This document shows, piece by piece, positions 6,102-59,804 of a stretch of DNA of 64,000 nt. The DNA is from Sipunculus nudus. Taxonomy: Eukaryota; Annelida; Sipuncula; Golfingiida; Sipunculidae. A program made the translations under genes and the position numbers. The DNA lies in assembly GCA_026874595.1 (NCBI GenBank), contig CM049311.1:62335453-62399452 (forward strand), written 5' to 3'. The first letter of the stretch is position 1, and each line of letters opens with the position of its first letter. The notes beneath the pieces are model-generated. The model saw only the letters and a list, made by a program, of their open reading frames with translations. It did no database searches and was not told the DNA's origin.

Positions 6102-7055
6102 TTTTTAGCGAACCTGTGAGCTTATGCAATGTTGCTGCATCGTCCATTGTGCGTCAGCACGTCGTGCATCGTCTCTAGTTAACCATTCCTGTCTCAAAAA
6201 TGGCAGGAGCTAGCATCACCAAATTTTTTGCAAATAATCAGTCATCAGTCTTCATTTGTTTATTTTTTTCTAACTGCATTTTCTTAGATTATTGCACAGC
6301 GTCCATCTGTTCTTCTGCCTTAGGATAAAAACACTCATATCTCTGCATTGGTTTGACCTATCGACCTGAAATTTTGGATGTGTATACATCTTGGACAGCT
6401 TTCTTGATTTTATGACAGGTGGCTACGCCTACATCACGTTTAAGCAGCAGACATCCAAGCTCATATCTCGGGAACCGTTTTACCAGTTGGGCCAAAATTT
6501 GCATGTGTATAGATCTCCCATAGCTCTTTATCATACTCTAAACTGGTGGCGCCACCTGCACCTGCTACCATTTTTGGCACAGCGTCCGTCTGTTTGTTTG
6601 CCGTGGGCTAAAATCACTTATATCTCAGTAGTAGTTTGACATGTTTGCCTAAAATTTTGCCAGTTTATACATTTTGGACAGCTTTCTTGATTTTGTGGTA
6701 GGTGGCACAACCCACATACACATTTCGGCTGCAGACATCCAGGCTATTATGCAACACACCTCACTCTATCTCCCCATGCCACTCAATCCATGCCTCACTT
6801 CACCGGTCCACTCTAATTTTGGCGGATACAAGTAGTCGCTTGTTGACTACCCGTATTCTAGTTTTTGTGTTGTGTGCACCCATGCTAGAATTTCAGCAGT
6901 AATGTGTTTTAATTGTTTCTTGTTCTAAGTGTTTAGTACTTGCATTGTTCATATACATGTTACACATGTTCTTGAAAAGTAATGGTCTAGCATTGAAGCA
7001 TTATACCTGGTGTAATCTCATTGCACAGGTTCGCATTAGGCCTGTAGGCCTTGTT
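6102..7055 (+). mobile_element. Complete family A element, Helentron/HINE-like, non-autonomous
   Basis: The 5' edge is TTTTTAGCGAACCTGTGAG. GCGAACCTGTG at 6108-6118 returns as its exact inverted copy CACAGGTTCGC at 7024-7034. This is followed by a hairpin, AGGCCT-GT-AGGCCT (7038-7051), and then TGTTAT. A 5' motif, its subterminal inverted copy, a 3' hairpin and T-rich flanks are the described layout of Helentron-associated elements. The element has no long open frame and so needs proteins from elsewhere. GGTGGCGCCACC lies at 6545-6556. A second hairpin ending in CTAG (stem 6832-6837/6845-6850, CTAG 6858-6861) lies inside and may be an older internal terminus. Confidence 0.7.
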
Positions 7056-7514
7056 ATTTTTCAACTTTACCAAATCCCCAAGGCCGAATACTTTTTAGGT
7101 GATTCTCAATTATCACCCACTTGCGGGTGTCAGGGGAAGCTTCCAGTGGTTGCTCAGCGAATGCAAACATCCAGTTAAAATTTAAATCTTTTTGTCACTA
7201 ATGGTGTTTCACCTCATATTCATTGTATTGCACTGAAAGTTTCTGTTTTAATGTGAGCTTACATTTAGATGTAATCTTGAATTCATAATTCTTTTACAAC
7301 ACACAAATACTCCTGTTATGTTGCAAATCAGTATAAATTGTCTACAGTGTTTGAATAGAAAGTCTCCCCTCTCCTACATTATGACTTTGATAATTAGGTC
7401 AAGGTCAAAAATAAATATTAGGTGCATAAATGTCACCTGTAACTACTGCTGTGATCAAAGGTGAGTTTTAAAATCAGCCATATTGCAGATGTAGTGCAAA
7501 ACCTGATAGAAGAA

Positions 7515-7515
7515 A

Positions 7516-7556
<41 letters not shown>
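7515..7556. repeat. Compound (AT)n(GT)n microsatellite
   Basis: Alternating AT passes directly into about 15 GT units. Confidence 0.95.
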
Positions 7557-7557
<1 letters not shown>

Positions 7558-10500: not shown

Positions 10501-11340
10501 AGCCCTTTGAGAAGATTTAAGGTAGCTTTTTGATAAGTTGGTTACAGATATTTATTCACATATTCATCTGGTGAAAAATTAGATTATTCTTTTCAGTGTG
10601 TGTATATTAATATATTATTCTTCCCTTAAAGTTGTATTTTTAAATGATATGATAAAGTTATACATAAATACTCATGTTAAAAAATGTTTTTAGAATATGG
10701 TCCTGTTGTAAAACATTAACCTGTCACGTGACATTGTAACTGATATGGATCTTTTTGCATAGGGGTTAAAGGTACACTTTAGATTTTCAAAAAAAAAGAT
10801 ATTCAGCTCTGTATATGAGGTATGTGATATTCAGTGTTTTACTGATCATGTACCGGTAAGGACAGTTTTACAGTGATCACAAACCCTGTCATTAAACAAT
10901 GCATTACATAACGGACATATTGAACTGAAGCTTGTTGTTTATTGATCACCAATTCAGGCATGAAATAATCAATAATTGCATTTACATTTACTTTCATACC
11001 TTTTTTTTTTTTATCAAACTCAGAATTGGACAGATAAACAGTATTTATGAAGCAGTAAGCAGAGTTTAATATGGAAACCACCTAGACAATTTACTGGCAT
11101 ACTGGTTACCATGGAATTTTGTTACAAGGGTAATTCTCTGGTTCTGGTATTTCAGTCTTTTACAAACATGTAGACCTGTTATTAACTGCCATCAGCTTAA
11201 TATTCAAATATTTATATTGCTTACTTATACTCCTTTCTGAATACTTCAACAATAATAATAATATTTATATAGTTATAAAACATCTACATGCACACCACAC
11301 ACGCTCAAAAGCCTGCCCCTACACCTCTCCCTCTCTTTTC

Positions 11341-11349
11341 TTCTCTCTC

Positions 11350-11390
<41 letters not shown>
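11341..11390. repeat. (CT)n microsatellite
   Basis: CT dinucleotides with one short interruption (ggctt). Confidence 0.95.
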
Positions 11391-11392
<2 letters not shown>

Positions 11393-11959
11393 CAATTGAT
11401 CAACAGATTTCAAGTAATTAATCTTTGATCTAAAAAATTTTTGCCAGAGTATGAACTTGCATCATCCTGGTCTAACATGGCCAGCTATCTCTCTTATGTA
11501 TATTGTCATGATAATGCATCATTATCTTATTTAACATGTGTTTGTTCTGAGAGGCACCAATGTGATTTGAATTTAGTGGACAGTTAAAAAATCCATGCTT
11601 CAATATTTTTGTTTATAATGCACACAGTGAGTGGTGTGTGTAACATTTGCGTTCCTTCCCCAATTTAGACCTTAGCACTTAGTGATCTTTACCTGTGTTG
11701 ACAGAGTGGTGTATAGCACACCCATGCACCTGCATAGTGACAACCCTTGTGACCAAGGTAACGACCTTCATGATCATCACTCAAGCACTAAACTACTTCA
11801 TTCTGGCTCACCTGAGTCCATGTTTTATGACTCTCTTACCATAGTGACATCATGTTAATGTTTGATGTTATACATGGGCTGATCTAGGATTTAGGGAAAG
11901 GATGTGTTTACTATTTAAACTGATGTCTTTAAAACTAAATAAGCTTCACAATTGTTGAA

Positions 11960-20186: not shown

Positions 20187-21225
20187 TTTTTTAGCCCTCA
20201 GCCCTTAGGCTGATGGGCTATTGTCGTCACCCAAGCTGTCTGTCCGTCCGTCCGTCCGGCGTCCGTTAGCTTTTACCTTGTGAGCGGGATATCTTGAAAA
20301 GGATTCACCGTCAGAATTTTATTTCCTCGGTAAAGATGTATATCGACAAAATCTCGGTCAAGTTCGAAGATGGGTGACCTTGACCTATTTTTCTACATTT
20401 TAGAGCTTATTATAGAAAAACACTTAGATGCTTATTACTCAGGAACCATTTGGTGGATTTTCACAAAACTTACTATGATTATTGAGACTGATATTCTGTA
20501 CCTGCTATACAAGTTTGGTGGAGCCACCTACAATTTCTGATTTTTAATGAATTTTTATCGGATTTTTCAACTTTGGACTTGTGAGCGGGATATCTCGAAA
20601 AAGATTCACCGTAAGAATTTTATTTTTCGGTGAAGATGTATATTGACAAAATCTCGGTCAAGTTCGAAGATGGGTGACCTTGACCTATTTTTCTACGTTT
20701 TAGAGCTGATTATAGAAAAAACATTTAGAAGCTTATTTCTCAGGAACCATTGGATGGATTTTCACAATACTTACTATGATCATAGGGACTGATGGTCTGT
20801 AACTGCTGCACAAGTTTGGGGGCGCCACCTGCAATTTCTGATTTTTTATTGAATTTTTCTTGGATTTTTCAATTTTGGCCTTGTGAGCGGAATATCTCTA
20901 AAAGGATTCACAATAAGAATTTCATTTCTTTGGTGAAGATGTATATCGACAAAAATCTCGTTCATGTTCGAAGATGGGTGACCTTGACCTACTTTTCAAG
21001 GTCACAGAGCTTATAATAGAATAAAACTTAGAAGCTTATTTTTCAGGAAGCATTTGGTGGATTGTTATGAATCATGGTACATACCTCTCCATTTTAAATT
21101 TATAACTGAGACATGTACAGATATACATCCATGTGAGAACAGATATTTAGTACTTGTTACTGTTACCACCTCTAAACACTGTTCTTTTGGCTGAGGGCTT
21201 TTGTCAGCTTTTGCTGATATTCTAG
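20187..21225 (+). mobile_element. Complete family B element, Helentron/HINE-like, non-autonomous
   Basis: The 5' edge is TTTTTTAGCCCTCAGCC, itself the left arm of a hairpin (20193-20219; AGCCC/GGGCT and TCAGCC/GGCTGA). AGCCCTCAGCC (20193-20203) returns as its exact inverted copy GGCTGAGGGCT at 21189-21199. Next comes the hairpin TCAGC-TTTT-GCTGA (21204-21217), then CTAG (21222-21225) and TT. The body is three ~301-bp modules starting with gtgagcgg at 20280, 20581 and 20883, each containing GATGGGTGACCTTGACCTA. Near-palindromes of the GGTGGCGCCACC type are at 20517-20528 and 20818-20829. No coding capacity is visible. Confidence 0.75.
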
Positions 21226-22770: not shown

Positions 22771-23399
22771 TCACTCTGGTGGTCAAGTTATGACTTCTTC
22801 TGAAGTATATTCTTAACTTTGTACATATATCAGTAAATCCTGAATGCAAAAGGCTCAGTAACTTATCATTCTTATTGTGTGGTTACCTTCTTGAACATTC
22901 AGTAGACATTAATCACCATCAGGCTGCGGGGCCATCCTTTAAAAAAATATGTACATGCACCTTTAAATATATATTTTTCACAAGAATATTTATGCATCCT
23001 ACCCCACACAGGCCCACAGCTATTACATTTATTTGATAGCTGCTATGGTGCAACACCAGTGCAAATTTCTTTGTCAGAGCCAGATTACTTTGCCAGTGTT
23101 GTTAAAATAGCACCAGTCTAGCTCACATGATACCAATATTAGCAAAGATTGCAAGCAAGTTTCTGGTAGGGAGCTTTCAGAAATTTTCCTGCACGTGCAA
23201 TCTGTCCATTGTGATTCATATTCTACATTACACATTTTTTATTTTTTTTTTCACTGTTGTGCAGTTAATACCAAGAAGAATTGCTGCATCTTCATGCTTC
23301 AGGCTCCATAGCAACTGGTTGTTTTATAGTTTTCAATTTAATTAAAACTTGATGTGCTTACACTCTGCATTTGCTCCTTAATATTATGGTAATGACATT

Positions 23400-24060
23400 T
23401 TTTTAGCTCAGCTGACTATAAGTCATCTGAGCTATAGTCGTGGTCCTTTGTTCGTCGTCCGTCCATCCGGCCTTCCATCTGTTAACAGGGCACATTTTAA
23501 AACCGTTGGACCTACGAATCCAAAATTCTGCATACCATTAGATGTCTCCAAAATCTCCTACCATACCAAAAATTGGGTCATTAGGACTTCGTTCCTTCAA
23601 GATATTAAGGAAAAACCTCCGTTTTCCATAAAAAAGCCATTGTTACACTTCAAGGCTGCCTAATATCAAAGCCACTGATCTGTTTTTGATCACATTTAGT
23701 ATTCATATTCTTCCATACATTTTCTGTGCACAAAAATTATGTCAGCATTGGGTATTATTTTGAAGTTATGGGCCCAAATATAATGCAGTTTTTTAAAAAT
23801 CAGGAAATATATTTGCTCACTTTACATGAGAATTGTTGAAGCTGGAAACTTTTTTTCAGGAATATAATTTTATTTAATCAAGATTCAGTTGTTTACCCAA
23901 AATTAGATCTGAATTTTTCGAATTTTTCAAGTTATTAGCATAAATAAAAAATCAATACCTTAAATTTTGTCCAACTTTGGCAGTGGCACGTTTTTTCTCT
24001 GTAAGCACTGTTGATTTCATTTTCACAGCATTAATACATAAGGATTTAATCTTTTAAAAT
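23400..24060 (+). mobile_element. Family C element, 5' part
   Basis: TTTTTTTAGCTCAGCTGAC opens the element. AGCTCAG (23405-23411) pairs with CTGAGCT (23427-23433). The characteristic 'gtccgtccatccggcc...gttaacagggcac' stretch follows. Similarity fades into AT-rich sequence and no 3' hairpin end was found, so the right border is approximate. Confidence 0.6.
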
Positions 24061-26111
24061 CTGAAATTTTAAAGGAATTGTTTGAAAAGAGTAGCTTTTA
24101 TTCATGTTTTCATACACCATGTCAAGTGTTGTTTACATCTAGCCCACCTAGTAGTACAGCCTTCACTTGCATGATGTAACCCACCCCAGGCAGCTTGCCT
24201 TGGCTCAGCTTGGCCACTACTAGCAGGCTTCCCCACTGCCCTGCACTCACCCCCACCCCCCCCCAGCTGGTGCATAAACTAGATGAATGTTGTAATTTTC
24301 AATATTTTATTTTATTCTTGGCTATGCTACATTTTAGATTTTGTATTGTACCACCAGCGTTACAATGATTAAAGTGCACATTTAATTGTGTCCACAAAGT
24401 GATGTATTGCTATAAAAGTGTGGATGTTCATCAGATAAGAAATGCTTTACTTCAGAAGGGTAAAACTTCTCCAGGTGTTGTGTCTAACAAGTGACCCATG
24501 GGTTATGACACTCAACTAACTAAGAAGGCATTCACAAAAGGAATTTTATCATCTGAATGCCAAATTTTGTAGGTGTAATTCCTATTCAACTGTAGCTATT
24601 AAAGTTCTTCAAAATCAGCAAGAAGAAAGTTTCATGATAATATGTCTAGCCATTCCCATGAATTCTAGCCTTTTACTGCAAATGCAGTCAGCTGAGATAA
24701 AAGTGACCATGCACATTTTTTTAAGACATCATATATAAATATATGATTGCAAAATAATACTCTGACAAGACTGTCATGAAGAAAAACAGTAAAAGTTTTG
24801 AGATACTGTGATGCATATGAAAAATTTACAGATGGACAGGCAAGTGGACAGAATCGACAAATACCTTTATTTCACTTTCAAGGGAATAATGCATTTAAGT
24901 TTATATATAACCCTTTTTTTTAGCATACCCACTTTTTCCATTAATAGATTTTATCAGATTCATCTTTTTATTTACAAGTGTTATAAATTTGTAATAAAAA
25001 AACTGAAAATATAAGTTAAAACATTAGAATTCTAAGTTGCAATCATTATATCTAGATTGTAGCTCATATTGGGTCATATTATGCATACACATATTTTATT
25101 ATTTTTAAATCAAATGATTAAACTGAATTTAAAAGAAAATAATGCCACAACATGGCATCTACAAAATTATTCCTTGAATCCCTATTAAACACCTGCTTTG
25201 GCTGAGAATATATTAGCTTGATTCTCCGAGAGTTCATTAACATAGAATAGAAAAGAAGTCTAAGACCACAAATATATTTACCTCAGCCAGGATAAGGCCA
25301 CACGGGAAATATATAATGCATGCCTGGATGAATGTTTGTCATTCTTCACCAACCCCATTGTTGCATCAGAGGTCATCTCTGCATCTGACAGTTACTTAAT
25401 TATTTGAACAAAACATATGAAATAGATAACTTCAAAATTATAGCTGTTTGTTCTTTAAGTGTAACCCAAACCCTCTTCAAAATTTTAACACAGCTAACTA
25501 ATCAAGTAACCAGCCAAGGACAAAAAAGATGTTATACCTGCTGGTGGAAGTATATGTTACCAGACATGAACAGGGCTTATGAAGAAAAAACTTTCTAGCA
25601 TTGTCTACATGGCATAAACTGTCAGTATAAAATGGCAATCACTGGAAGTCATGTCATTTCATTGATTGAGTTCGACTCTCTATTGGCATGGCTGGTCTCT
25701 GCTGATGGGATAGGTGGAGGGCATGCATGCTGCTTCTGCCTTTGTGGTTGTGGGTGCTGTGGCTTTCTTCAGGTCACTGATATTGGTAAAACGGTGGCTC
25801 CTTGATTGGCTTGGTGGTATCACATCTGTTAAGTTCTAAAAGTCTCACAATTACGCTTTAGGAGCGCACAGAGCTGGGGTCTTTACCACAGCAACCTGTA
25901 GTTGCTTGATAAAGCAAAAACATCTTCAGTCAGTCAGACATGAACTGTTAGAGACTTAGAGTGCCAGTACACTGTTGGGCATGTTAGAGTACAGGTTGTT
26001 AGCATCTTGCTACTGTGTCTCTCAGATAATATTACATTATGTAAAGTGATTATATAATACTTCTCTGAAGAGAAAGTATCTAGATTTTCAAGTAAAATGA
26101 AGAAATACATT

Positions 26112-31429: not shown

Positions 31430-32400
31430 TGGTCCGAGGGGTCGGTCATCGGTAATCAGGTCATGGGCTACCGCGCCGGGGCACGCGTCAGGTGTGAAGT
31501 GACTGATAAGAACGATCACTCTGTTTACTCTGCGCTCTCATTCAGACCACCATATACCCTAATCCAATTAACAGCTTGTCTCTCCCTCTCACAATTATAT
31601 ATGAGACATTACATAGCTAACAGCAACACATATCTCTCTCTCTCTCTCATTAGATTTATTTACACCAGTCATATACGCGCTAAATGGTGCTGCGGCCGCT
31701 CTTCCTTTACCGATCGCTCTCATAGCTAAGACCCCGGCGCGGTTCACTTCGCAAAATTTGTTAGCAGGCGACGTGGTGGTGTAACTTGGTGCCGCGTTCC
31801 TCTCACATAATTCATTCGTGCAACACAGACCCATATTGCTGCACCACCCTCGGCATTTATCTACATCCTCCACTAACGACATGGGAACCTTGTGATCATC
31901 AGTATGTGACCGTCTCTCATTCAAATAGCGAATTTTATCTCCGCTCATTCTACTCTTATTTTCTTCGACCCATGACGTTCAGTTTGAAGATAGTGTATAT
32001 TACAGAAGAAGGAACAATGTATTCGGTAATGGTTTTGGCGATGTAATGATTGACCCTGGGATATTTCTAGGTATATTCTTGATACCAGGACCCTTATTGG
32101 GTGACACTAACATATTTTAGGGCAGTGACATAATCAATATTCGGCGACTGGAGGAGTGCGATGTACAGTTTACTTCTGGGTAAGGCGTATAGGGGGACGT
32201 GTTTTTATTAATTAGTGCCAATTAGTAAGTGCCGGTAATAAAGATAAGCTCTTTCCCGGCTGACTGACCGCGGCTTCCCCATGCCTATCAATCAACCATT
32301 TGCCTAATACCGCGAGCGCATGGTTAACCAATAAGCAACTTACACGCTGCTAACTCTCGCCGAGCTGACAGTTGGTCCTGTTTGCACCCCACGTGGGGTT
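31430..32400. promoter_or_regulatory. CpG-richer patch just upstream of the first synaptotagmin coding exon
   Basis: CG dinucleotides become frequent (ctaccgcgccggggcacgcg near 31470). It contains a CCAAT box (32328-32332), a CRE-like tgacgtt (31974), a (CT) run (31630-31650), and a 12-base palindromic extended E-box CCCCACGTGGGG at 32387-32398. The patch ends about 200 bp before the acceptor at 32605. It could hold the main promoter and a 5' UTR exon, but no initiator or donor can be chosen with confidence. Confidence 0.35.
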
Positions 32401-35591: not shown

Positions 35592-35773
35592 TTCCTGTCT
35601 GGGCCAGTATTTTGATCGGCATTGTCGGGTTGCTGCTGCTGCTGTGTATCTGTTTCTGCATTTGTAAGAAGTGCTGCTGCAAGAAGAGGAAGAAGAAGGA
35701 TGTCAAGAAGGGACTCAAAGGAGCAGTGGATCTCAAGAGTGTACAGCTCCTCGGAAACTCATACAAAGAAAAG
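35592..35773 (+). CDS. Syt1: Synaptotagmin exon 2: membrane anchor, Cys cluster, basic linker
   Basis: The acceptor is ctggctgttacag before 35592 and the donor is AAG|GTGGGT. The start at 35592 was chosen over the pyrimidine-rich tttcag at 35536 because only it restores the frame after exon 1's split codon. It encodes residues 65-125. A hydrophobic segment (about 67-89, VWASILIGIVGLLLLLC...) is followed by a lysine-rich stop-transfer stretch KKRKKKDVKK. Seven cysteines sit at the membrane face (83, 85, 87, 89, 92, 93, 94), where synaptotagmins are palmitoylated. The rest is the linker KGLKGAVDLKSVQLLG, closely matching the family. The protein would span the synaptic vesicle membrane once. Confidence 0.93.
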
Positions 35774-43612: not shown

Positions 43613-46600
43613 TGTTTGTGGCACGACGCACAGAAATTACCTACCACTGTATTTTTTTCAAACATGGCCCTCAGTGCATTGTCTTTATGTTGTGGTTGGT
43701 GTCCATTTTGTGGGAAATTCCTGCGGCTTGCAGCTGCTAAATCTTCTGCTAAAGAATCATTTCAGAAGCACTATTCAGCAGCGTTAGGTGGATTTCAGAA
43801 GAATTATGCCAAAGTCAAGGTGCTCTTACTTTGTTTCAAATCCAAACATTTGTTGTTTATTCAGCCATTTAGACTTACCTGTTTAAAATTTGAGAGATAT
43901 TATATCCTTATATTAGAAATATTTACCAGTATAAAACTTTATGTGAGAACATGTAGAACAATTGTACTGCTTTAAGAAGTATTGTTAGTTTCATTTTTAG
44001 GGATATTATACCTTATTAGTTTGTTTAGATTAATTTAGGGTTTCTTATACTAACATATATATTCTTTTGCATATATTCATTCAATTTAAGGGATTAAATG
44101 ATCAATTATCTCCATAAAATGATTGCCTGCAAAATATTCTGGACTTTACTTTTTTTATACAAGAACATACATATTGTCTACATTAGTCTATTTAGACCAG
44201 ATGTATAGGATTTTGTATGAACCACCTTTCTTATAAGAATCAAGCATATAACAGGTGTGCTGAGGCCATAAACAACTAGAGCCAAAAAAAATTGCACAAA
44301 AAGAGACAAATCAAATCCTTCCTGGTCAGCCAGAGATTTTTACAATACAAGCTTTATGGGGTCAGTTTAATTGTTCTCATTTCCTGTATGATAGTTTTCT
44401 CCAAGATAACACTAGGGGATGTTATCAAATTTTATATAAAGATAATAACTGTAGAGATTGTTGTGATAACTTGTGATATGACAGTATATTTTTTCTTTAA
44501 AACTTTTAACATTTTTCTCTTCAAAACCTGATTTTTAGCGAACCTGTGAGCTTATGCGATGGTGTGGTGTTGTCCGGCGTCCGTTGTCTGTACGTTAACC
44601 CATACTATTTTGAAAATGGCAAGAGTTAGCATCAAGAAATTTTCTGCAAAAAATTAGTCATCTAAAAAACTCTATGGGATTTTGCTTATTTTATGGCTTA
44701 CTGCATTTTCTTAGATTTTATAGAGAAAAAGCTAAAAAAAACTTTAAAAATCTTCTCCTCTGAAACTGTTCAGCCAAATTGTCCAATATTTCACAGAAAT
44801 GATCCCTGGAACAATCTCTCTTAAATTTGTTCGAATGGTTTAAGTTCGGTGATTTTTGGCTGAGTTACAGCTAGTTGAACTTAGTCATCTGTCCAAAAAG
44901 GCATACTAAAATTACAATCTTAGAAACGGCTGGAGCTGTAATCACCAAATTTTATGCCAATGTTGGTCACACGAGTCATGTCTGAAATTCAGGTATTTGT
45001 GGCGCCACCTGCATTGGCCTTTTTTGAACGGGGGTCATCAGTTCCCGTATCATACTGACAGCTACAAAAACTTCTTCTCTGAAACAATTTGGCCAAATTG
45101 TTTAATATCCCTAAGAAATGATCCTAGGGTAGTGCTTCCTTAAGTTTGTTCAAATGGTCTCAGTTCAGTGACTTTTGGCTGAGTTACGGGAAGCTGAATT
45201 TAGTCATATGCCATATATAACAGCCCATTTTAGCTCAGTTGCTACAAAGATCTTCTTCTCAAAAACCACATGGCCAAATTCTTAAATCTCACACATAAAT
45301 TATCCTTAGATGTTGATAATTCAAGTTTGTTCAAATAGTTTTGGTTCAGTGATTTTTGGCCGAGTTATTGGAAGCTTAACTTAGCAATTTTGCTTTATTT
45401 TCCCATATGAGTTATAAACCTGCAAAACGTTTTTTGACTGACGCCACTGAGGCCTATTTGGTTTAAAATTTTGCAAGAATAATCCCCTGAATAATTCTTA
45501 TAATAATTGTCTTTTATGGTTCCAAAGAATAAATTTTGGCTGAATAATAAAGATTGAATTGAGTCATTTTACCATATATGTTAGCTGTGTGAAGCAGATC
45601 CATCTAGCCTGGAACCAGTTTATCAGCATCCGTTACATCATGCCTCCAGACATTTAGATTTCAGGTTATCTTTGGTTAATATTGACAAGAATGTTTTTTA
45701 AAAACTTTTAAAAAATGTAGATTTATGATTTTAGATATTCCTTATGCCAGGATATGTTTACAATTACAGTTATACGTTAACCCTTACTATTCCAAAAACG
45801 ACTGGAGCTAGCATCATGAAATTTAATGCAAAAAATTTGCCATCTGAAAAAAACTGCATTTTCATAGATTTTATAGAGAAAAAGCTAAAAAACCTTTAAA
45901 AATCTTCTCCTCTGAAACGGTCAAGCAAATTAGTTCAATATTTCACAGAAATAATCTTTTTTACCATCTCTCTCAAGTTTGTTCAAATGGTTCAAGTTCT
46001 GTGAATTTTGGCCAAATCACAGGAAGTTGAACCTAGTCATCTGTCCAAAAAAGCATACTAAAATGACATCTCAGAATCTCAGAAACAGCCAGAGCTATCA
46101 TCACTGAATTTTATGCCAGTGTTAGTCACATGAGTCATATATGAAATTCAGGTATTGGTGGCGCCACCTGCATTGCCCTTTTTTACGGGGGTCATTGGTC
46201 ATTTGTATATCAACCCATAATTTCTCAGGAATTGCAGGAGCTACCTTCCCCAGATTTTATGCAATTATCTGTCACATATCAAATGTTGTCGGATTCAGCT
46301 TATGTTTTTTGCTATCTGCATTTACTTAGATTTTATAGGGGAAAAGCATGAAAAGTCTTCTTGTAAACGGTCCAGCCAGATTGTTCAGTATTTTACAGAA
46401 ATGATCCCAGAGGCAAGCACTCTCAAGTTTGATTAAATGGTTTGCATTTGATGAATTTTAGTGGAGTTAAATGAATTTGAATGGTCATTTGGCCAAGTAA
46501 GCATACTGACATAGGAATGACAGAAGCTAGCATTACCAAGTGTTGTGCAAATGTTGGTCACATGACTTATATTTGAAGTTGCAGATTTTGATGTGCCACC

Positions 46601-47071
46601 TACATTGACCTGTTTTTTATGGGCAAAAACCTCATAATTTTAGCCTCTTTCAGCTTAAAATGTATATGATGAAACTGTCAAGTTGAATCGTTCAATATTT
46701 CAAAAGAATTATCGTAGGACATGGTTCTTTAAATAATATCAGAAAAACTTAAGTTGGTCTTATGGTTATTATTATATCTAACTCAAACTGAGGACTGCAA
46801 AACTGTTCTTCTACAAAATTATTGGTTCAATTATAACTTCTGTTACATGGCACAAAAATTATTCTTAGGTGGCCTTTGTTCAAGATATGAATGATTTTTG
46901 GCAGAATTATTGGACCTTTAACAATTAAAGAACTGAATCTTTTATTTTTCTAGATATTTTGATAAAAAGTTTATGAATATTTCAGCTTGAAAAAAAGCAT
47001 TTTAGCCAAAGATTGTGTCTGTATATTTACATAGGTTAAGAAACTGCCAACTGTTTCAGATTTGGCAATAG

Positions 47072-47370
47072 ATCAAGAGTTCATTCAGTGCAGCCAGATA
47101 TAGGTCAAGAGTTCAGTCAGTGCAGCCAAGCACAAGGCATGTGATCCCCTCATGGGTGACATGTGAACACCTCATGGGCACCATGTGATCACCTCATGGG
47201 TGTCATGCCCCTAAGGGATGCATGTGGAGCCAATCTATTTATAGCTTTGGCAGACTGCCAACTGTATCAGATTAGGCAACAGGTCAAGAGTTCACTCAGT
47301 GCAGCCAGGTACAGGTCAAAAGTTCACCCAATCTAGCCAGGTGCAGGTCATGAGTTCACTCAGTGCAGTA
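47072..47370. repeat. Degenerate ~30-bp array in the A element
   Basis: 'aggtcaagagttcactcagt' and 'gcagccagg' recur at least five times, interrupted by a short 'cctcatggg.gacatgtgatc' array (about 47145-47210). A single related unit is at 5690-5720 in the other A region. Confidence 0.65.
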
Positions 47371-47826
47371 GCCTGAACTAGCAAATTTGTCACAGTTCAC
47401 TCGGGGCAACTGCCTTTCTCACCTAAGCGTGGTCAGCCCCATGCATCAGACTTAAGGTAAGTTTGATGTATTGGCCAAATATTTTGACCTGTCTATGTGT
47501 CTTTGATGGGTTTCTCGTTCACAAGACAGGTGTCACCACCTACAATGACATTTGTACAGTGTGTGACTTTTGTGCCTGCTTATTTCTATAGAGAACTTTT
47601 GATATATCATCCTGAAATTGGGCATATTTATACCTGTCATATTTTAATTATCATATACTTGTCATATACAAGACTGGTAGTGCCACCTACAATAATTTTT
47701 TGCACAGTGTGTGTCCCTGCTTATTTCTCAGGAGGGGTTTGATATATCAGTCTGAACTACGGCATATGTATATATCTCTGAAACCTTTTGTATACAAGAC
47801 TGGTGGTGCCAGATACAATCATTTTT

Positions 47827-49107
47827 AGCTCAGCTGACAGTAAGTCAACTGAGGTATAGGAATGGCACTTTGTCCATCGTCTGTCTGGACATCCGGCCAT
47901 CCGTTAGCAGGGCACAAATCATAACAGCTGGTCCTAGAAACTTCTAAGTGAACATCCAGGGAGGTCAATTAAAAATTTCCTTGGTTACCTGAAATTAAGT
48001 CACTGCGACCTTTTTCCTTCAAGCTATGGGGCTTGGAAGTACCCCCCAGAATAGTAAAAAATTTGATACAAAACCTCCAACATCTTGATAATTAAAGCAT
48101 GGTTTGTCATGAATCTTGCCTTGAATAATTACCATGACTAGTTTTGTCAGTTCCTGAAACGTGGTGGTTTTCCTATTTTAACAAATATTTTTCAATTTAT
48201 TAACTATTAAATGACAACAATCATGTCAGTTTCTCAGGTGTCATTACATCTGGTGTCCCAAAACCTGGGGTGTTTATTGATCACAAGTGGATGCCCTGTA
48301 CTAATCACACTGTCTGTCAGTCTGTCTGTTTGTATGTCTGTCTGTCTGTCAATCCGTCCATCCACACAAATTAGTTTCCAGATGATAACTCCATTTAAGT
48401 TTGATATATTGGTTTCAAACTTAACTTATAAATGGCCCACCACTAAAGTAAGAACCATGTTGATTTTTGGGTCCAATGGTCAAAGGTCAAGGTCACAGGA
48501 CCCATTTCTTTAAAAGGAATGTGTATGCATTTGAAGCCAAACTTTTCATCGCAAACCTTCCATCTTCAAGATATTGCTAACCTGCCACTAGGGGAAGATT
48601 CCGTTTGATTTTTGGGTCATAGGTCAAAGGTCAAGGTCACAGGGCCCATCCATTCACTAATTAGTTTATGGATGATAATTCTGCTTTGGATAGACAGACT
48701 GGCTTCAAACTTGATTTAATAATGACCAACCACATATGTAAATTCATTTTGATTTTCTGGGTCCAGGGATCTAAGTTGAAGGTCACAGAAGCCACATCTT
48801 TAAAAAGATTGTGGATACACTGTAAATCAAACTTTTCATCCTGAACTTTCCAATGTTCACACATGGCTTACTTGCCCAAAGTGAGGAAACCTGTAGAATT
48901 TGAGGTTATCTGGTCAGAGGTCAAGATCACTTTTTAAAAGATTGTTACAATAATCCTAATGCTGCAAGTTCAAGGATATTAAGTTCTAAGAATTTTTTGG
49001 TTACAAGGTCATTGGTTAAGGTCACATGACTGTCATCCTGAAAAAATTTCTTTCAAAATATCCTTATAGACAAATTCAACTGAGCGTTGAGACCCATGGG
49101 TCTCTAG
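47827..49107 (+). mobile_element. Family C element nested in family A
   Basis: The left edge is TTTTT|AGCTCAGCTGAC. The right end is CTGAGC (49080-49085), then the 16-base palindrome GAGACCCATGGGTCTC (49089-49104) ending in CTAG|TT. CTGAGC is the inverted copy of GCTCAG at the 5' edge. The second half (48300-48900) resembles the 145-bp units of the 13340 array. It contains AGGTCAAAGGTCAAGGTCA at 48621-48639. It has no coding capacity. Confidence 0.7.
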
Positions 49108-50029
49108 TTGTGTTGTGTGCACCCATGCCAGAATTTCAGCAGTGATGTTTGTGTAATTGTTTCTTATTCAAAATGTTTAGTACCTGCATTGTTCATATTC
49201 ATGAGAATTCATGGTCCAGCATTGAAGCATTATACCTGGTGTATTTCCCAATGCACAGGTTCCGTTAGGCCTGTAGGCCTTGTTATGCTTTATTTTGACT
49301 ATATAGACCCAGAAATTTAAAAGTTGTTTAAATATATATGAATTAAGACAGTTGGCATGTTTTATTTTTTTTTGTTATTTTCACAATTTTTATCTAATAT
49401 TTGTGTCAGTTTAGAATATTTGGAATTTTAGCAAATCAGTGCTTTTTAAAATTCGACAAAAAGGAACTTGCCAGGCAGTAGCACCCTATAGTATATCAAT
49501 CAAATTACTGGTATAGCTTCAAAATTGTACTTTTTTTCCTTATCTAATATAAAGGCATATAGATGACTGTTGGGTCAGATATACATTTATATTCTGGGTT
49601 AATTTTGATATATCAATAAAAAGAATCTAATTTGATTTGAGGCATCAAATCAAATTTTCTTTGATTAAATAATATAATTGAAAAAAAGATAAAACTTTAT
49701 TTTCAAGTGCTGAATGTATGGGTTACACACAGGAAACCATGAAACTTCCAGCATTGAACGTACAGGGAATCGAATTATCTGGAAACCACAGCAAAAGACT
49801 CATCGTATAATCTAATTTGTTACCTAGGGAACCATTCACAGGGAATTTATTTAAGTTCAAGGCATTTTCTTGCAGAAAACCATGTAAAATACATGACTGA
49901 TTTTTATATGATAAAAAATTTTAAATGGAGACATTTAGGAGTTTGTTTTAGCTTTCCCAATCTGAGGTCCATGGCTTTCATCCTTCAGGAAACCATGTAG
50001 AATTCCATCCTAAACAATGTAGTGACTGA

Positions 50030-50327: not shown

Positions 50328-50453
50328 GTGCAGCCTGACCTTGATGAATTAGAGGTCAACATGGAAGACAATGAAGATGCAGAGAGTACCAAGTCAGAGG
50401 TCAAACTTGGAAAATTACAGTTCTCATTGGACTATGACTTCCAGAAGGGAGAG
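50328..50453 (+). CDS. Syt1: Synaptotagmin exon 3: acidic linker and start of C2A
   Basis: The acceptor is ttctttatcag before 50328 and the donor is GAG|GTCAGT. It has 42 codons, phase 0 at both ends, residues 126-167. It begins VQPDLDELEVNMEDNEDAES, an acidic linker, and then enters C2A with KLGKLQFSLDYDFQKGE, the first beta strand as in the family. Long introns lie on both sides. The exon sits just after a small duplicated block but has none of its composition. Confidence 0.93.
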
Positions 50454-50689
50454 GTCAGTTTGAAGTTGCCATGGTGACCATTTAAGTGATTCAATTATTT
50501 ATTTTATTAGAAGCATTATTCTTTAGCTGACTTTTATTACTTAAAATGCTCTCATTATGTCTCCCTTCCAACAGGCACCCATAGTCATTGTGTGTCATTA
50601 TTTTGAACACAATAAATTTTGAATGACTCAACATTTTTTCAAGAAATTTGAAATTAAAATTGTTTCTAATAGTATTTTGGATGAGTTGG

Positions 50690-53072: not shown

Positions 53073-53890
53073 TTTTTAGCTCAGATGACAGTAAGTCAAC
53101 TGAGGTATAGATATGGCGCTTTGTCTTTCATCTGTCTGGCCGTCCAGCTGTCCATTAGCAGGGCACAAATCATAACTGCTGACCCCAAAACCTGTAACTA
53201 AAAATCTAGGGAGGTCCATAAAAAATCTCTTTGGGAACCTGAAATTAGATCACTGCGACCTATATCCTCCGTGCTATGGCGCTTGTAAGTACCCCCAGAA
53301 TAATGAAAAATTTAATACAAAACCTCCAATATCTTAATAATTAATGCATGGATTGTCATGAATCTTGCCTTGAATATTGACCATGACTAGTTTTGTCAGT
53401 TCCCGAAAAAAGTGGTGGCGCCACCCATATTTTTTCTTATTTTTACGAATATTTTTCTATTTTTTTACTATAAAATGACAACAATCATATCAGTTTCTCA
53501 GCTGTGATTCCATCTAGTATCGCAAAACCTGGTGTGTTTATTGATCACAAGATGATGCCTTATAGTAATCACCCTGTCTGTCTGTCTGTTCTTCTGTCTG
53601 TCTGTCCATCAGTCCATCCCCACAAATAGTTTTAAGATGATTACTCAAGGTTGGCTTGACACATGGATTTTAACCTTGACATATAGCCCACCACTAAAGC
53701 AAGAATCTGTATGATTTTTGGGTCATGAGGTCAAAGGTCAAGGTCACAGGACTCAGTTATTTTAAAAGATTATGGCTGAATTTTAAGTCAAGCTTTTCAT
53801 CCCAAACTTGCGCATTTAGCTGACTTGCAAGTACAGGGAGAGAGTGAATTAATTTGGGGTCAAAGGTCAAGGTCATTTTTAAACATATAA
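53073..53890 (+). mobile_element. Family C element, 3'-truncated
   Basis: The left edge is TTTTT|AGCTCAGATGAC (53078). It is parallel to 47827 over most of its length ('gtaagtcaactgaggtatag', 'agcagggcacaaatcataac', 'gtgtttattgatcacaag'). GGTGGCGCCACC lies at 53414-53425 and AGGTCAAAGGTCAAGGTCA at 53728-53746. It ends in AT-rich sequence without the CTGAGC plus hairpin terminus. Confidence 0.65.
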
Positions 53891-54307
53891 TTAACCCATA
53901 AATTAAAATACAGGTTTGTCAGTGTGCCATGATGAAAATATGTTAAATTGCTATATGTGATGTAACTACTGTATATTATCGGTTGATATTACTTGAAGAT
54001 GAGAATACCTGGTATTATTGCCATGCACATATTTATATTTTATATTATAAAAAATTTTCATTGATATGTTTAGAAGGTGACACTACCTAACATTATATCA
54101 AAATGCCCAGATTTATACACATTATGACATCTGTGTCTTTCATATAGTGTTGTTATATCCCTTTCTTGAGGTTTAATCATCTATTTAACAGTGATTCCAT
54201 TACTTATAACTCTCTCATTACATTTTAGTACAACCAGTATGCTCTTATTTTACAAGCCAAAACTGATTCATATTGTTACTTTGATTACTTGTTGTATGTG
54301 TTTGTAG

Positions 54308-54475
54308 CTCTCTGTAGGTGTGATACAAGCAGCTGACCTCCCGGGCATGGACATGTCTGGGACTTCAGACCCCTACGTCAAAGTCTACATCTTGCCAGAC
54401 AAGAAGAAGAAGAGTGAAACTAAAGTCCATCGCAAGACCCTCAACCCTGTCTTTAACGAGACATTCACCTTCAAG
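54308..54475 (+). CDS. Syt1: Synaptotagmin exon 4: C2A, first Ca2+-binding loop
   Basis: The acceptor is atgtgtttgtag before 54308 and the donor is AAG|GTATGT. It has 56 codons, phase 0, residues 168-223 ([20 protein letters not shown]...). Two of the five C2A calcium aspartates are present: D182 (GMD) and D188 (TSDPYVKVY). They are followed by the polybasic strand KKKK (199-202), which contacts acidic lipid in the family, and [14 protein letters not shown]. In the family, Ca2+ binding makes C2A insert into the membrane to help trigger vesicle fusion. The exon is too short for simple open-frame scans; it was found by reading across the splice sites. Confidence 0.96.
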
Positions 54476-56690
54476 GTATGTGATAAATGAGGTCTTGAAA
54501 AGACCAGCTCTGTATGTCCAGACTGTATGAAGTCTTAGGGATTACCAGAGATAGACATGACCAATTTATTGGAACATTCATCTTGGAGCAATTGTTCTGG
54601 GATAGGTCTACCCAGAAATATTTTCATGTGGGCGTTGATAGGATGAAATAATTGTTCTTTTATCAATATAATGGTAGACACATTGATATTGTTGAAAATT
54701 AACAATATATAATGTACATTCATAGATCTTTACTGCCACTGATTGTAAATGTTTGAAAAAAATATTTTCAACATTTTCTTGATCATTACAGACTTATTTT
54801 TGAATATTATTTTTCCATTTCATGGCAGTAAAGTCGTAGCTTTTACATTTTAAATTACCCATACATTGTCATCATACTATATAAAGAATTTTGAGCTTTC
54901 CCCAAATGATCTTTAACCAAAGATTGGTTGCCAGAAAGTGAGCGAAACCTGATGTAAGTTCAGATGAATGTTCTGTAGAAACATATTCACTAGAATGGAA
55001 TTATGTTCTTTAAATAAATTGTCTCAAATGGTAGGTTCAATGTGGACAAACACAAGATAATAAGAGAAGAATAGGACTGTAAGCATGATTGATTAGAAGG
55101 CCAAAAGCACATTAATAATGTAACTAGAAGCAGGTAGTTTGCCTGACATCCATGCAGTTCAGTATTTCACCCATGGAATCAGATAGTATCAGACAGGGAA
55201 GAATTCTGTTACACAATGCATTAATTTTCTGAATTTGTTCAACAGTGCATGGTTTGAATGTTGTATTAAAATTAATCCATTAAAAGCACAATATGACTAA
55301 ATGTTCCATGGTCAGAGGCCATCTGCTGTTTAATCATTATACACATCAGACTTTTTATATCACTTTAGGAATTGTTTTTACCCATAGTCATGACAAGTTC
55401 CAACCTCAAAATCAAACCCTGAAGTCTGGACTTGTAAGATGACTGGTTTCTATAGTATTCTGATGAGACTATGTAAAAATTGTGGATATGGGCAACCACT
55501 TTAAAATAAAAGAACTTTATATTTTCATTTTATTTAAATAAAAATAAAAAGTCTTTTTTGAAAGAGTATAAAATAAAATGTCTTATTTTGGGTAATAGGG
55601 TTATAATGGTGCATGATGTGTGAGCACCATGTTTGTTATTTATTTAAACCAGAGTCAAAAAATTAATATCTTTTCTTGAGGGGAATCACCTTGTTTTCAT
55701 GGCAAAGATTGCCTTCTCCCTGTCTAAGGTGTAAGGGGAGAGCTCTAGGAAAATTAAGTATTTGGCTTAAATATTACTAATGGTTAACTCCATACATGAT
55801 TGTACAATTACATAATGTGCAGGTATAAGTGCTAATAAATATTGAATTATTGATTGTGTTCATATAGATGAAGCAAACTCTTTCTTTTTACTTTTAACAT
55901 TAAAAACCACTCTAAGTTCTGTGTTTGGGGGCTCAAAGCCTTGAAGTTATGATCTTTACCTAAGTCAGCTGGTTTCTAGGTTACCCTCGTAGAATATCAT
56001 ATTTTCTATACTGGATAGACTATTTTGTAAGCTTTTGTGTCAGACCAAATCTCTCTGTTTTGACAATTACTTTTGAAGGATGTAAGTATGGTCTAACATG
56101 TTGGCATGAAGTTAAGGCATGGCATGATATTTAACCCATTCTGGAAATAAGTGACCTTGACCTACTTTTCAAGGGCACAGTTATTTACTCATTTAATTAA
56201 GATTTTCATATCTTGTCAGTGATATTCTGGTCACCATAGGTCTTACGAAACTGTTTTAGTACTAGATTATATTATTAAGCATGTTAACCTTTTCTTGACT
56301 TTTGACCTCTGATAAACTTTCAAGGTCAAACAAAATTCTTTCCTTTAACCCATTTTCATCAAAGGTAAGTTAAGCTTCCAGTAGAGAATAGATTACTTGG
56401 ATCTTCTTCTTTCACTTTGTGCACTAACGATTAATCTTGGTGTGTGTATCAAGGGCACACTATTTCTTTAAAGGTCACATGTTCAGCTTTGTAAAAAAAT
56501 TAATTCACAAGGTCACTACCACCAGCACAACATGCCAGCTTTCTTCAGAGTGAGTTAATAAATTTTTTAACTACATTATATATCTGATGATATTCTTAAC
56601 ATGAATTTTTTCTCATAGTACATGATAATATTATCATTCCAATATCCAATTCCCATCTTCTGTTTATGTGTGTTATTTCATGGATTCCAG
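54476..56690 (+). other. Synaptotagmin intron 4
   Basis: AT-rich. Near its end (56150-56520) it contains scattered TGACCTTGACC / AAGGTCA words like those at 50690. No other content was recognised. Confidence 0.7.
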
Positions 56691-56864
56691 GTGCCGTATG
56701 CTGAAATGGGCTCCAAGACACTTGTCTTTGCAATCTATGACTTTGACCGCTTCTCCAAGCATGACCAAATTGGTCAGGTCAAGGTGCCCTTGAACTCCAT
56801 TGACCTTGGCAGGGTGGTGGAAGAGTGGCGTGACCTGACAAGCCCAGAAACAGACGGAGAAAAG
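56691..56864 (+). CDS. Syt1: Synaptotagmin exon 5: end of C2A with second Ca2+ loop
   Basis: The acceptor is catggattccag before 56691 and the donor is AAG|GTAAAT. It has 58 codons, phase 0, residues 224-281. It carries [14 protein letters not shown], with the remaining C2A calcium ligands D240, D242, S245 and D248. All five aspartates of the canonical site are therefore kept, so C2A should bind Ca2+. It ends [15 protein letters not shown], where family members pass from C2A to the short C2A-C2B linker. No C2B exon follows in the remaining 7.1 kb. Confidence 0.96.
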
Positions 56865-57932
56865 GTAAATCAAATGAAATAATCATTCAAATATATATTT
56901 TATGCAGTAGTCTTATTCAGCTTTTGAATTTATTTAGTATAAGGTTAAATAATAAAGAAAAAGAAAAATGCTTTTTGCCATTAAGTTTTGTAGTTGTTAC
57001 TTAAATTGAGATATGTCTTACTTAAGGTATTGGTATATTACATCACATAAAAGAAAAACTGGTAAATTCAAATCATGTGTAACATCTCTTTCGCTTTAAT
57101 ACATGCTGTTCTTTCCATGTACATGATAACTATGAGCTGAGCTCTCCCGAGCAGCCTGTTACAGAGTTATAACAAATAACAAATTAGACTAAATATTCAA
57201 AATGTAATTTATTTCTAAAATTGTCATTCTTTACATAATCCTGCCAAATTCATGGTTGGCTACACAAAACTATATTTTCTTTATGTTCCTTATCATACTT
57301 TTTTGTATTTGATAATTGTACAGTGGGGTCTAATTTGAGCAATCCCCTGATTAAGTGACTAGCTGCTGTTAACAACCATTTTTCCTGTCCATGGATAGAT
57401 TTTCAGATGAAAGGTTCCTTGATTAAGTGACCACCTTCCAAACATGACAACCGACCACCATATATTGCACAATTTTCACATTTCCAACTGCTTTGTGTGA
57501 CCAATTTCAAACAGACAACTGCTGCATACTAGTAAGAGAGTGATTATTGTTTAAAATTGACTGGTACCCTACACTATATATAATGGAAGACTGCTCACAT
57601 CTATGGCTGTGAATGGCTGAGATCAGTGGGCCATTTAACACAAGGAACCAGTCTAGGGCAAGGATTGTAGGTGATCTCAATTTGCAAGAGATGGCGCTGT
57701 TGACTACAAGCAATCAGGAAGAGACTGTTACTTTCCTCATGGTGTGGTTAAAATGCTTTAAATTTTTATGTGACCCAAGAATGCCAGATAGGTTGATAAT
57801 AAAATGATTGTTTTCATCATGACTGGTAATTCAAGTTGATTTCATAAAATATTATTAATTGTCATTGTCAATGATAGTTTTGACCAGCAAGTAGGTCAGT
57901 CTCATCAAATTTCATGAAAACATCAACTTTTT

Positions 57933-59804
57933 AGCTCAGCTGACTGTAAGTCATCTGAGCTATAGCGATCACCCTTTGTCTGCCATCCGGCCGTCTGTCT
58001 GTTAACAGGGCACAAATCATAACTGCTGGACCTCGAATCTTCTAACTCGACATCCAGGGAGGTCCATGAAAATTCTCCTTGAAAACCAGGAATTAGGTCT
58101 CTGTTACCCATATTCTTCAAGCTATGGGGCTCTGAAGTACCCCCTAAAATAATGGAAAATTTGATACAAAGGCTCAAGTATCTGAACAACTAATGCATCG
58201 ATCACCATGATTCTTTGCATGGATATTCGTCATGGAATGTTTCATCACTTTCTGCAGACTGGTGGCGCCACCTGTATTTTTCAATTTTTTTCTCTATTTA
58301 TGAGACCTTAAATATTAAAGATATGGTCATCTGTTAACAAAGCACAAATTGTGACAACTGGACCTAGAATCTTCTCTCTTAATATGCAGGGAGACCCATG
58401 AAAAGTCTCTTTAGAAATCTGGAATAAGGTCTCTGTTATCCATATTCTTCGAGCTTTTGGCTCTGAAGTACCCCCCAGAATAATGGAAAATTTGATACAA
58501 AAGCTCCAGTATCTGAACAACTAATGAGTGGATCACCATGATTCTTTGCATGCATTTTCAAATGAGGTCTCTGTTATCCATATTCTCTGAGCTATGAGGC
58601 TTATAAGCACCCTTAGCATAATTGAAAATTAGATAAAAAGCAGGGCACAAATTATAACCATTGGACCTAGAATCTCCTAACTTAAAATCCAGGGAGGTCC
58701 ATGAAAATTCTCCTTGAAAACCAGGAATTAGGTCTCTGTTACCCATATTCTTCAAGCTATGGGGCTCTGAAGTACCCCCCAAAATAATGGAAAATTTGAT
58801 ACAAAGGCTCAAGTATCTGAACAACTAATGCATCGATCACCATGATTTTTTGCATGGATATTCGTCATGGAATGTTTCATCACTTTCTGCAGACTGGTGG
58901 CGCCACCTGTATTTTTCAATTTTTTACCATTTTTTTCTCTATTTATGAGACCTTTAATATTAAAGATATGGTCATCTGTTAACAAAGCACAAATTGTGAC
59001 AACTGGACCTAGAATCTTCTCTCTTAATATGCAGGGAGACCCATGAAAAGTCTCTTTAGAAACCTGGAATAAGGTCTCTGTTATCCATATTCTTCGAGCT
59101 TTTGGCTCTGAAGTACCCCCCAGAATAATGGAAAATTTGATACAAAAGCTCCAGTATCTGAACAACTAATGAGTGGATCACCATGATTCTTTGCATGCAT
59201 TTTCAAATGAGGTCTCTGTTACCCATATTCTCTGAGCTATGAGGCTTATAAGCACCCTTAGCATAATTGAAAATTAGATAAAAAGCAGGGCACAAATTAT
59301 AACCATTGGACCTAGAATCTCCTAACTTAAAATCCAGGGAGGTCCATGAAAAGTCTCCTTGGAAACATGAAATCAGGTTTCTGTTACCCATATTCTATGA
59401 GCAATGGGGCTTATAAGCACACCCCAGAATATTTGAAAATTTGATACCAAAGTAGGGCACAAATCATAACGATTGGACCCAGAATCTTCTCACTTGGCAT
59501 CCTGAGAGTTCCTAAAAATTCACCCCTCCAAACCTGAAATTGGGGTACTGTGACCTATATTCTCAGAGTTTTGGGGTATGTTTGAGCATCCCAGAAGTAA
59601 TGAAAAATACTCACAAAATGCCAGGTTCCTCAGAAAAGGCGGGTTGGATTGTCATCAAATTTGGTGTGCTAATGGGTCTTGATAAACTTAAGCTAATATG
59701 CATGAATGATGATGCCACCTATATTATCTTAATTAGTTTCCTGTGCAAGGACATATTGTCAACATGTCAGTGGGCTGAGCGTCATGACCCATGAGTCACT
59801 TGTT
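57933..59804 (+). mobile_element. Complete family C element, Helentron/HINE-like
   Basis: It opens TTTTT|AGCTCAGCTGAC. AGCTCAG (57933-57939) pairs with CTGAGCT (57955-57961) as a 5' hairpin. The 3' end has GCTGAGC (59774-59780), the inverted copy of GCTCAGC near the 5' edge, then the hairpin TCATG-ACC-CATGA (59782-59794), then CTTGTT. GGTGGCGCCACC is at 58261-58272 and 58896-58907. The length (1.87 kb) is enlarged by an internal tandem duplication. No coding capacity; minus-strand frames of 60-118 codons simply repeat with the duplication. Confidence 0.72.
58052..59332. repeat. ~640-bp tandem duplication inside a family C element
   Basis: 'ccagggaggtccatgaaaat' begins copy 1 near 58053, copy 2 near 58690, and a partial third at 59335. 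The period is 635-647 with small indels (for example an extra 'tttttaccat' in copy 2). The copies are nearly identical. Confidence 0.88.

Follow-up and report, generated by a model that had tools for sequence, protein, structure and literature searches.

Three HINE families in the window

The window analysed here is a 64-kb stretch of the Sipunculus nudus genome (C6:62335453-62399452; host assembly of 1.43 Gb in 153 contigs). It carries members of three interspersed repeat families, which we call A, B and C, together with further elements related to them (Table 1), and matches to a synaptotagmin-like gene. The evidence supports A, B and C as non-autonomous rolling-circle families of the Helentron-associated (HINE) type. 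HINEs are already known from flies and oysters, and the three are additional families of that type. No stop-to-stop frame of at least 220 aa was found in the 64-kb window.

DNA searches of the host genome gave first-look candidates numbering 8982 for A, 3285 for B and 14973 for C, of which the best 40 were scored, and copies were fetched with their flanks (20 of A, 20 of B and 15 of C). All three proved to be large interspersed families with defined boundaries. The copy alignments fix the ends as TTTTTAGC on the 5' side and, on the 3' side, a hairpin followed by CTTG or CTAG and then TT. Exact matches to the 3' ends number 6200 for C, 3510 for A and 286 for B in the host genome. The terminal CTTG or CTAG is present in 18/20 copies of A, 19/20 of B and 13/15 of C, and TT follows the 3' end directly in 18/20, 19/20 and 14/15 copies, respectively.

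Subterminal inverted repeats (subTIRs) of about 11–15 bp, a HINE trait, are present in A, B and C, and central tandem repeats are also among the HINE traits seen. The 3' hairpin folds with a z score of -2.1 in A, -2.5 in B and -0.1 in the window copy of C, which is mutated. Chance was assessed as the longest exact inverted match between the first 40 and the last 70 bases in 2000 random window pairs; the 11 bp of B were reached by 4 pairs, the 8 bp of A by 100 and the 7 bp of C by 366. By this test only the inverted motif of B stands out within the window, and those of A and C rest on their conservation across copies.

The HINE identity is supported because many copies share their ends, the target is TT, target-site duplications are lacking (B, C), tandem repeats are present, and an element coding for Rep, helicase and endonuclease has C termini. 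An earlier note, made from the letters of this DNA, had likened the three families to HINEs, and the copy ends, the TT target, the lack of duplication in B and C and the C-ended Rep/helicase element all agree with it. The Helentron-type end layout that it saw in all three was confirmed for B and C; for A the right end stood and the left edge did not. The end sequences of the families were not found as text in published papers.

Canonical Helitrons have a 5' TC and a 3' CTRR and insert between A and T. The families do not fit this pattern, having a 5' TTTTTAGC, a 3' CTTG or CTAG and TT to the right (CTAG alone would fit CTRR).

Table 1. Features of the window (positions 1 to 64,000)
Feature	Position	Strand	Details
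251-bp tandem duplication, 2 copies	4512..5014	+	carries a second A left end (4701) plus host flank
Family A HINE, corrected	4952..7053	+	left TTTTTAGCAAACCTGTG, right ...AGGCCTGTAGGCCTTG then TT; right end aligned in 20 copies
Internal copy of A left end, no boundary	5952..5982	+	upstream 120 bases match 9/20 A loci
Internal copy of A left end, earlier taken as boundary	6102..6132	+	upstream 120 bases match 6/20 A loci
A 3' subterminal inverted repeat CACAGGTTCGC	7024..7034	+	exact in last 60 bases of 18/20 copies
A 3' hairpin (AGGCCT GT AGGCCT) and CTTG end	7038..7053	+	33-mer exact 3510 times genome-wide (1775 + 1735), control 0
Family B HINE	20188..21225	+	TTTTTAGC...CTAG then TT
B 5' hairpin	20192..20220	+	includes 5' subTIR AGCCCTCAGCC (20193-20203); z -5.5, 0/200 shuffles equal
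B central tandem repeat	20277..21063	+	301-bp unit, 2.6 copies
B 3' subTIR GGCTGAGGGCT	21189..21199	+	GGCTGAGGGC exact in 20/20 copies
B 3' hairpin TCAGC-TTTT-GCTGA and CTAG end	21204..21225	+	39-mer exact 286 times (143 + 143), control 0
C-related HINE left end	23400..23520	+	
C-type 3' end	24488..24516	-	only minus-strand HINE end in the fuzzy scan for ends of the three families
Second A element with nested C-type element	44532..49284	+	C-type element at 47822-49107, same strand
Further C-related HINE with left end	53073..53466	+	
Family C HINE	57928..59802	+	TTTTTAGCTCAGCTGACTG...TGACCCATGAGTCACTTG then TT
C 5' hairpin (subTIR and its inverted repeat)	57932..57962	+	z -4.9, 0/200 shuffles equal
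C 3' subTIR CAGTGGGCTGAGCG	59768..59781	+	CAGTCGGCTGAGCG in most other fetched copies; 9-mer GGCTGAGCG exact in 13/15
C 3' palindrome TGACCCATGAGTCA and CTTG end	59785..59802	+	many copies: perfect TGACCCATGGGTCA

Boundaries of the families

Copy alignment upheld the boundaries proposed for B and C and placed the left boundary of A elsewhere. Family A had been described as running from 6102 to 7055; its right end was recovered at 7053, and its true start lies at 4952. A left boundary at 6102 was rejected: at this site the A left end recurs inside the element, and the bases upstream of it are shared with other A loci (Table 1). The 120 bases upstream of 4952 and of the second left end at 4701 match none of the 20 A loci, and the two upstream flanks are identical to each other over 128 bp. 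The 31-base left end at 4952, TTTTTAGCAAACCTGTGAGCTTATGCGATGG, has 390 exact instances in the genome (180 + 210), and the 12 that were fetched have upstream flanks unlike each other and unlike that of the window. The inverted motif reported for A as exact over 11 bp pairs the 3' end with the internal end copy; with the true left end at 4952, 10 of 11 bases pair. In the second A element, the nested C-type element has the left end TTTTTAGCTCAGCTGACAG and the right end GAGACCCATGGGTCTCTAG; A sequence restarts at 49108, directly after its CTAG, and the left junction gave no alignment to A.

The genome search with B scored 40 places including that of the window, and 38 of the 40 span the query from base 1–4 to within 2 bases of its end. 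The mean pairwise divergence is 2.2% (210 pairs among 21 sequences, with 20 copies aligned). Copies start with TT(T/A)TTAGC, the initial five bases being TTTTT in 15/20 and TTATT in 5/20. These five bases appear to be part of the element because the base before them varies (C in 9, T in 6, G in 4 and A in 1 of the 20 copies). The account of B given in the earlier note, an element at 20187-21225 whose 11-bp motif is one arm of a 5' hairpin and returns inverted near the 3' end, was borne out, with the start shifted by one base: the element has the 3' hairpin and CTAG then TT, and AGCCCTCAGCC lies within the 5' hairpin and recurs inverted, exact over 11 bp.

Family C, proposed at 57933-59804, was likewise recovered with slightly different limits and with CTTG then TT at its end. 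Its inverted motif of 7 bp is correct for the window copy, which is mutated; in other copies the motif has 13 bp, one of them mismatched (AGCTCAGCTGACTG / CAGTCGGCTGAGCG). The 31-mer with the perfect 14-bp C palindrome occurs exactly 6200 times (3126 + 3074; control 0), the window copy not being among them. The strong 5' hairpin of C was absent from the earlier account.

Insertion sites

Empty sites were sought for 33 copies (20 of B and 13 of the 15 of C; none of A) by comparison with the fetched loci and the window. Two passed the empty-site rule: a C element that sits in B-type sequence (L032) and a B element that sits in a miniature inverted-repeat transposable element (MITE) with terminal inverted repeats (TIRs; L012). 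The third, weaker case, a B element (L002), was chosen by eye. It lies in a repeat that is also present at window positions 23300-24100, to which the left flank matches up to the insertion, and the BLAST match of its right flank restarts only 90 bases in. At all three, the joined flanks cross a T-run and there is no target-site duplication; some bases adjacent to the junctions differ. The proposed insertion at TT without duplication is thereby upheld at three empty sites (2 B, 1 C), which are paralogous and differ in quality.

These sites also bear on whether the families could be MITEs or other cut-and-paste elements. The elements are short and non-coding, reach thousands of copies and occupy AT-rich sites, as such elements would; their very ends, in contrast, lack terminal inverted repeats and are asymmetric, and the three empty sites without target-site duplication contradict this identity. 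We consider it ruled out by the empty sites, and very improbable overall.

Same-family or different-family HINEs stand head to tail at L011, L027, L043 and L053, the 5' end of one lying about 12 bases or less from the 3' end of another. The TIR MITE seen at L012, L019 and L035 has ATGGTTCTCAGGCACT-like ends, and its 29-base end pattern gave 3894 matches with at most 2 mismatches.

A coding Helentron with C-type ends

A profile search with PF14214, in which 150 of 195 candidates were scored, gave 143 matches to Rep. Four frames of 2208–2419 aa (L056, L057, L058 and L059) combine Rep and a PIF1 helicase with an OTU or Herpes_teg_N-like domain; each also has a C-terminal endonuclease match, above the curated cut-off in L056, L057 and L058 but weak in L059, the frame of an element on C17. 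This frame (2298 aa) matches Helitron_like_N, PIF1, DUF6570 and Herpes_teg_N above the Pfam cut-offs and Exo_endo_phos under the cut-off (E 4e-4); the 93%-identical L058 matches Exo_endo_phos_2 at 7e-8. The Rep motif is GSPHxH, with S between G and P (RGSPHAH in L056, RGSPHIH in L058).

The C17 element has C-type ends, with GTCAGCTGAGCATCATGACCCATGGGTCACTTG then TT on the right and TTTTTAGCTCAGCTGACTG on the left. It is 14,888 bases long, and the copies on C10 and C5 measure about 16 kb by their coordinates. Homology between the C17 and C10 copies begins exactly at TTTTTTAGCTCAGCTGACTG, and the approximately 190 bases compared upstream are unlike; the C5 copy begins at the same place, with only 11 flank bases compared. 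In five other copies, 98% identical, the match ends at query 1425–1429 of 1441, which is 2–6 bases beyond the CTTG of the C17 element. Among the best 40 scored places for the Helentron 5' region, eight others start at the left end (query 95–96) with 91–96% identity, four of them clustered on C15, and these eight are taken for putative Helentron derivatives.

The first 50 bases of C differ from the Helentron at 2 positions in the C10 and C5 copies and at 5 in the C17 copy. Judged by sequence, C and the Helentron match at the family level (5' subTIR), not at the subfamily level. C is likely to have an autonomous partner in this 15–16 kb Helentron, with Rep, helicase, a weakly matched endonuclease and C-type ends. 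The genome search for a Helentron Rep/helicase with the same termini, as suggested in the earlier note, yielded this C-type coding element and no A- or B-ended one among 24 Helentron flanks, 14 of which gave no end.

Through most of the coding frame, the L058 and L059 elements show about 93% identity; in the 9.5 kb compared, their similarity ends near both frame ends, except for a 138-base piece downstream. OTU-type Helentrons on C11 (L056/L066/L067) and C7 (L072/L087/L088) are 99% identical in the DNA compared on either side of the coding region, about 6.1 kb upstream of it and 6.75 kb downstream; they have long tandem-repeat 3' regions, and no boundary was reached within the DNA compared.

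Mobilisation of the three families

The 3' flanks of 25 Rep loci were fetched, and 24 were usable, L105 still lying inside the coding frame. To find Helentron ends, short patterns were scanned for and the points at which copies cease to match were noted, a procedure that may miss mutated ends. C-type ends or close variants were found on 8 of the 24 flanks (L059, L068, L069, L070, L081, L103, L106 and L107), and a fourth end type, GTGTCGTTCCGACACATCTAG then TT, on two (L082 and L086). Sequence related to this fourth end type also adjoins two B copies (L004 and L014). Among 100 B 3' ends listed, none lies within 15 kb of a Rep match, and the closest is 24.6 kb away.

The claim that one active replicase mobilises all three families is unsupported by these data, only C having been matched to a coding element. 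Families have been defined by an identical subTIR of at least 11 bp in the cited part of a study of mites and flies (PMC4067079), and by this rule the subTIR sequences place A, B and C in separate families. A single C-type Helentron lineage might still move all three if it recognised TTTTTAGC, the 3' hairpin and CTWG then TT rather than the subTIR. A, B, C and the C-type Helentrons do share the hairpin and CTTG or CTAG before TT; TTTTTAGC is common to the families and to the Helentron left ends read; the palindrome differs among Helentron subfamilies, in which CTTG and CTAG both occur; and the C type is the commonest end among the sampled Helentrons for which an end was found (8/10). Over the last 60 bases, however, A and B are only 33% and 23% identical to the C copy L021 (the B string being anchored two bases short), and the subTIRs are kept within A (18/20) and B (20/20), as expected under specific recognition. 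Furthermore, A- and B-type Helentrons may have gone unseen, since no end was found on 14 of the 24 flanks. We regard a single lineage as doubtful.

A, B and C have a common end layout and defined boundaries, B and C have the three empty sites, and a 15–16 kb coding element carries C-type ends. With these observations, the three families are very probably HINEs copied in single-stranded form by a Helentron Rep/helicase and joined into T-rich sites, with TT on the right and no target duplication. The Helentron proteins would copy the HINE as a single strand, with the 5' TTTTTAGC as the probable start of transfer and the 3' hairpin as the probable mark for its end. C would be moved by the protein of the C-ended Helentron. 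A and B may use Helentrons of their own that are not yet seen, or may borrow that of C.

Several results weigh against this mechanism or narrow its base. A and B ends are missing from all 24 Helentron 3' flanks sampled, 14 of which yielded no end of any kind. Identity between the C copy L021 and the Helentron is 86% for the last 35 bases and 63% for the last 60, the latter below the 80% subfamily rule, and no clean empty site was found for L021. Only two of the 33 copies of B and C screened for empty sites passed the rule, and the third site was picked by eye; the empty sites cover B and C only, and for A the right flank alone was read.

Strand coherence of neighbouring HINEs

Strand was analysed for the first 100 matches listed per pattern, which cover one stretch of chromosome C1 (0–19 Mb for C and 0–26 Mb for A). 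Runs tests gave z scores of -3.7 for C and -4.2 for A. In the first 19 Mb, 95 of 123 A–C pairs less than 100 kb apart lie on the same strand. By distance, the proportion is 5/5 below 5 kb, 22/25 at 5–20 kb, 31/37 at 20–50 kb, 37/56 at 50–100 kb and 55/102 at 100–200 kb; circular shifts reached the observed values in 0/90, 0/90, 12/90 and 33/90 cases for the last four classes. Adjacent A/C neighbours less than 50 kb apart share a strand in 37 of 45 cases. When B and A left ends were compared with A and C within 100 kb, leaving out those A left ends that had a listed A 3' end less than 6 kb away, 22 of 28 agreed.

The TIR MITE that hosts L012 served as the control, with 141 places pooled from two pattern listings. 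A first, smaller list gave 18 of 26 MITE–HINE pairs on the same strand within 50 kb (p 0.08, underpowered). With the pooled control, same-strand pairs number 33/65 within 100 kb and 25/42 within 50 kb for MITE–HINE and 14/30 for MITE–MITE. Fisher tests of A–C against MITE–HINE gave p = 0.0003 (100 kb), 0.0023 (50 kb) and 0.02 (5–50 kb). On the stretch tested, neighbouring unrelated HINE families share a strand more often than expected, and the cut-and-paste MITE does not clearly form strand domains. Transfer RNA-like SINEs were sought as a further strand control, and none was found in the window or in the 34 of 108 fetched loci that were scanned. In the window, on C6, 8 HINE elements were identified from their ends, and 7 of them are on the plus strand.

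A possible reading, which we put forward tentatively, is that HINEs lie in strand domains of about 5–100 kb because copies enter the strand that is locally exposed, either the lagging-strand template or the strand displaced by transcription. The domains would then preserve, as a kind of fossil map, the direction of forks or of transcription. The cited parts of earlier studies describe related behaviour: the bacterial IS200/IS605 elements prefer the lagging-strand template, and their orientation recapitulates replication direction (PMC5371812); Helraiser inserts preferentially into the promoters and bodies of active genes, its nuclease is active on single-stranded DNA only, and lagging-strand replication and transcription-driven melting have been suggested as sources of single strands (PMC4778049). 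No report of strand domains of Helitrons or Helentrons was found among the records listed by searches of open-licence literature. How eukaryotic rolling-circle transposons acquire the strand they enter is, to our knowledge, an open question.

The distance profile and the control also contain results that speak against the strand coherence. The A–C signal is raised again at 200–400 kb (123/193, 0/90 shifts) and slightly at 400–800 kb (202/356, 3/90 shifts), unlike a simple decay. At short range the control is not fully neutral: MITE–HINE pairs agree in 10/14 cases at 5–20 kb and 21/33 at 5–50 kb, and the nearest HINE within 50 kb lies on the same strand as the MITE in 20/31. In addition, the idea of coherence arose from viewing the listings, the pairs are not independent, and the data come from one chromosome stretch.

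Selection could produce the same pattern if intronic insertions in one orientation were purged, for example through cryptic splice or poly-A signals, and the survivors followed gene direction. The 5–50 kb scale fits gene lengths, the plus strand that holds 7/8 of the window HINEs is also that of the synaptotagmin-like gene, and the MITE control leans alike at 5–20 kb, though not significantly. The MITE shows no coherence over 100 kb (33/65), although it may carry weaker signals, and one gene only was checked. Selection is a credible explanation that we place somewhat short of an even chance, and on present evidence exposed-strand insertion and intron selection are about equally likely. Local segmental duplication, or insertion beside existing HINEs, is a further candidate source of the coherence. 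In its favour are the head-to-tail neighbours at L011, L027, L043 and L053 and a C 3' end lying about 220 bases after an A 3' end, twice among the listed matches. The signal, however, is found between unrelated families at 5–50 kb (53/62), past the reach of adjacent insertion, and duplication would need to be pervasive; we consider this origin unlikely.

Strand coherence is the larger matter and the part worth following. If orientation does follow replication or transcription, any HINE-rich genome would offer a direct test, and HINEs would record the direction of germ-line forks or transcription.

Comparison with known systems

The families resemble Cg_HINE of the Pacific oyster, as described in the cited sections of PMC7492417, in the 5' subTIR with its inverted repeat, a GTCC-type microsatellite, central satellite-like tandem repeats, the 3' subTIR and palindrome, TT insertion without target-site duplication and the occurrence of several unlike families per genome; this likeness is one of description, not of sequence. 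They differ in that a coding Helentron is tied to one family here, whereas the Results of that paper report none. The HINE/DINE-1 and Helentron elements of mites and flies (PMC4067079, in the part cited) are alike in the presence of subTIRs, 3' stem-loop, T-rich TT target, lack of duplication and a partner with RepHel and endonuclease; in contrast, the partner here has a Herpes_teg_N-like or OTU domain. Helentrons with a viral-tegument-like deubiquitinase (VTD) domain share the Herpes_teg_N-like N-terminal domain, RepHel and AP-type endonuclease, which are read here from sequence alone, and molluscs are named among their hosts in the cited part of PMC9741609. IS200/IS605 (PMC5371812, in the section cited) is alike in single-strand transposition and in an orientation that tracks regional chromosome direction, but is bacterial and has another transposase type; here the system is eukaryotic and the scale is about 5–100 kb.

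Several unlike HINE families in one bivalve genome (PMC7492417) and VTD-bearing Helentrons (PMC9741609) are already published, according to the sections cited. The new families widen the HINE picture, and for one of them a coding partner that bears a viral-tegument-like domain has been identified as likely.

Other features of the window

A synaptotagmin-like gene on the plus strand is indicated by two strong tblastn hits, 54308-54478 (E 7e-27) and 56685-56897 (E 1e-23), and a weak one, 50415-50456 (E 0.26). HINE ends between its exons are in sense orientation relative to the gene. A candidate transmembrane-type exon at 35594-35773 is our own reading, and searches of Pfam and PDB gave no confirmation of it. 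A weak match to a Mutator-like transposase, under the curated cut-off (E 0.0027), lies on the minus strand at 31598-31978.

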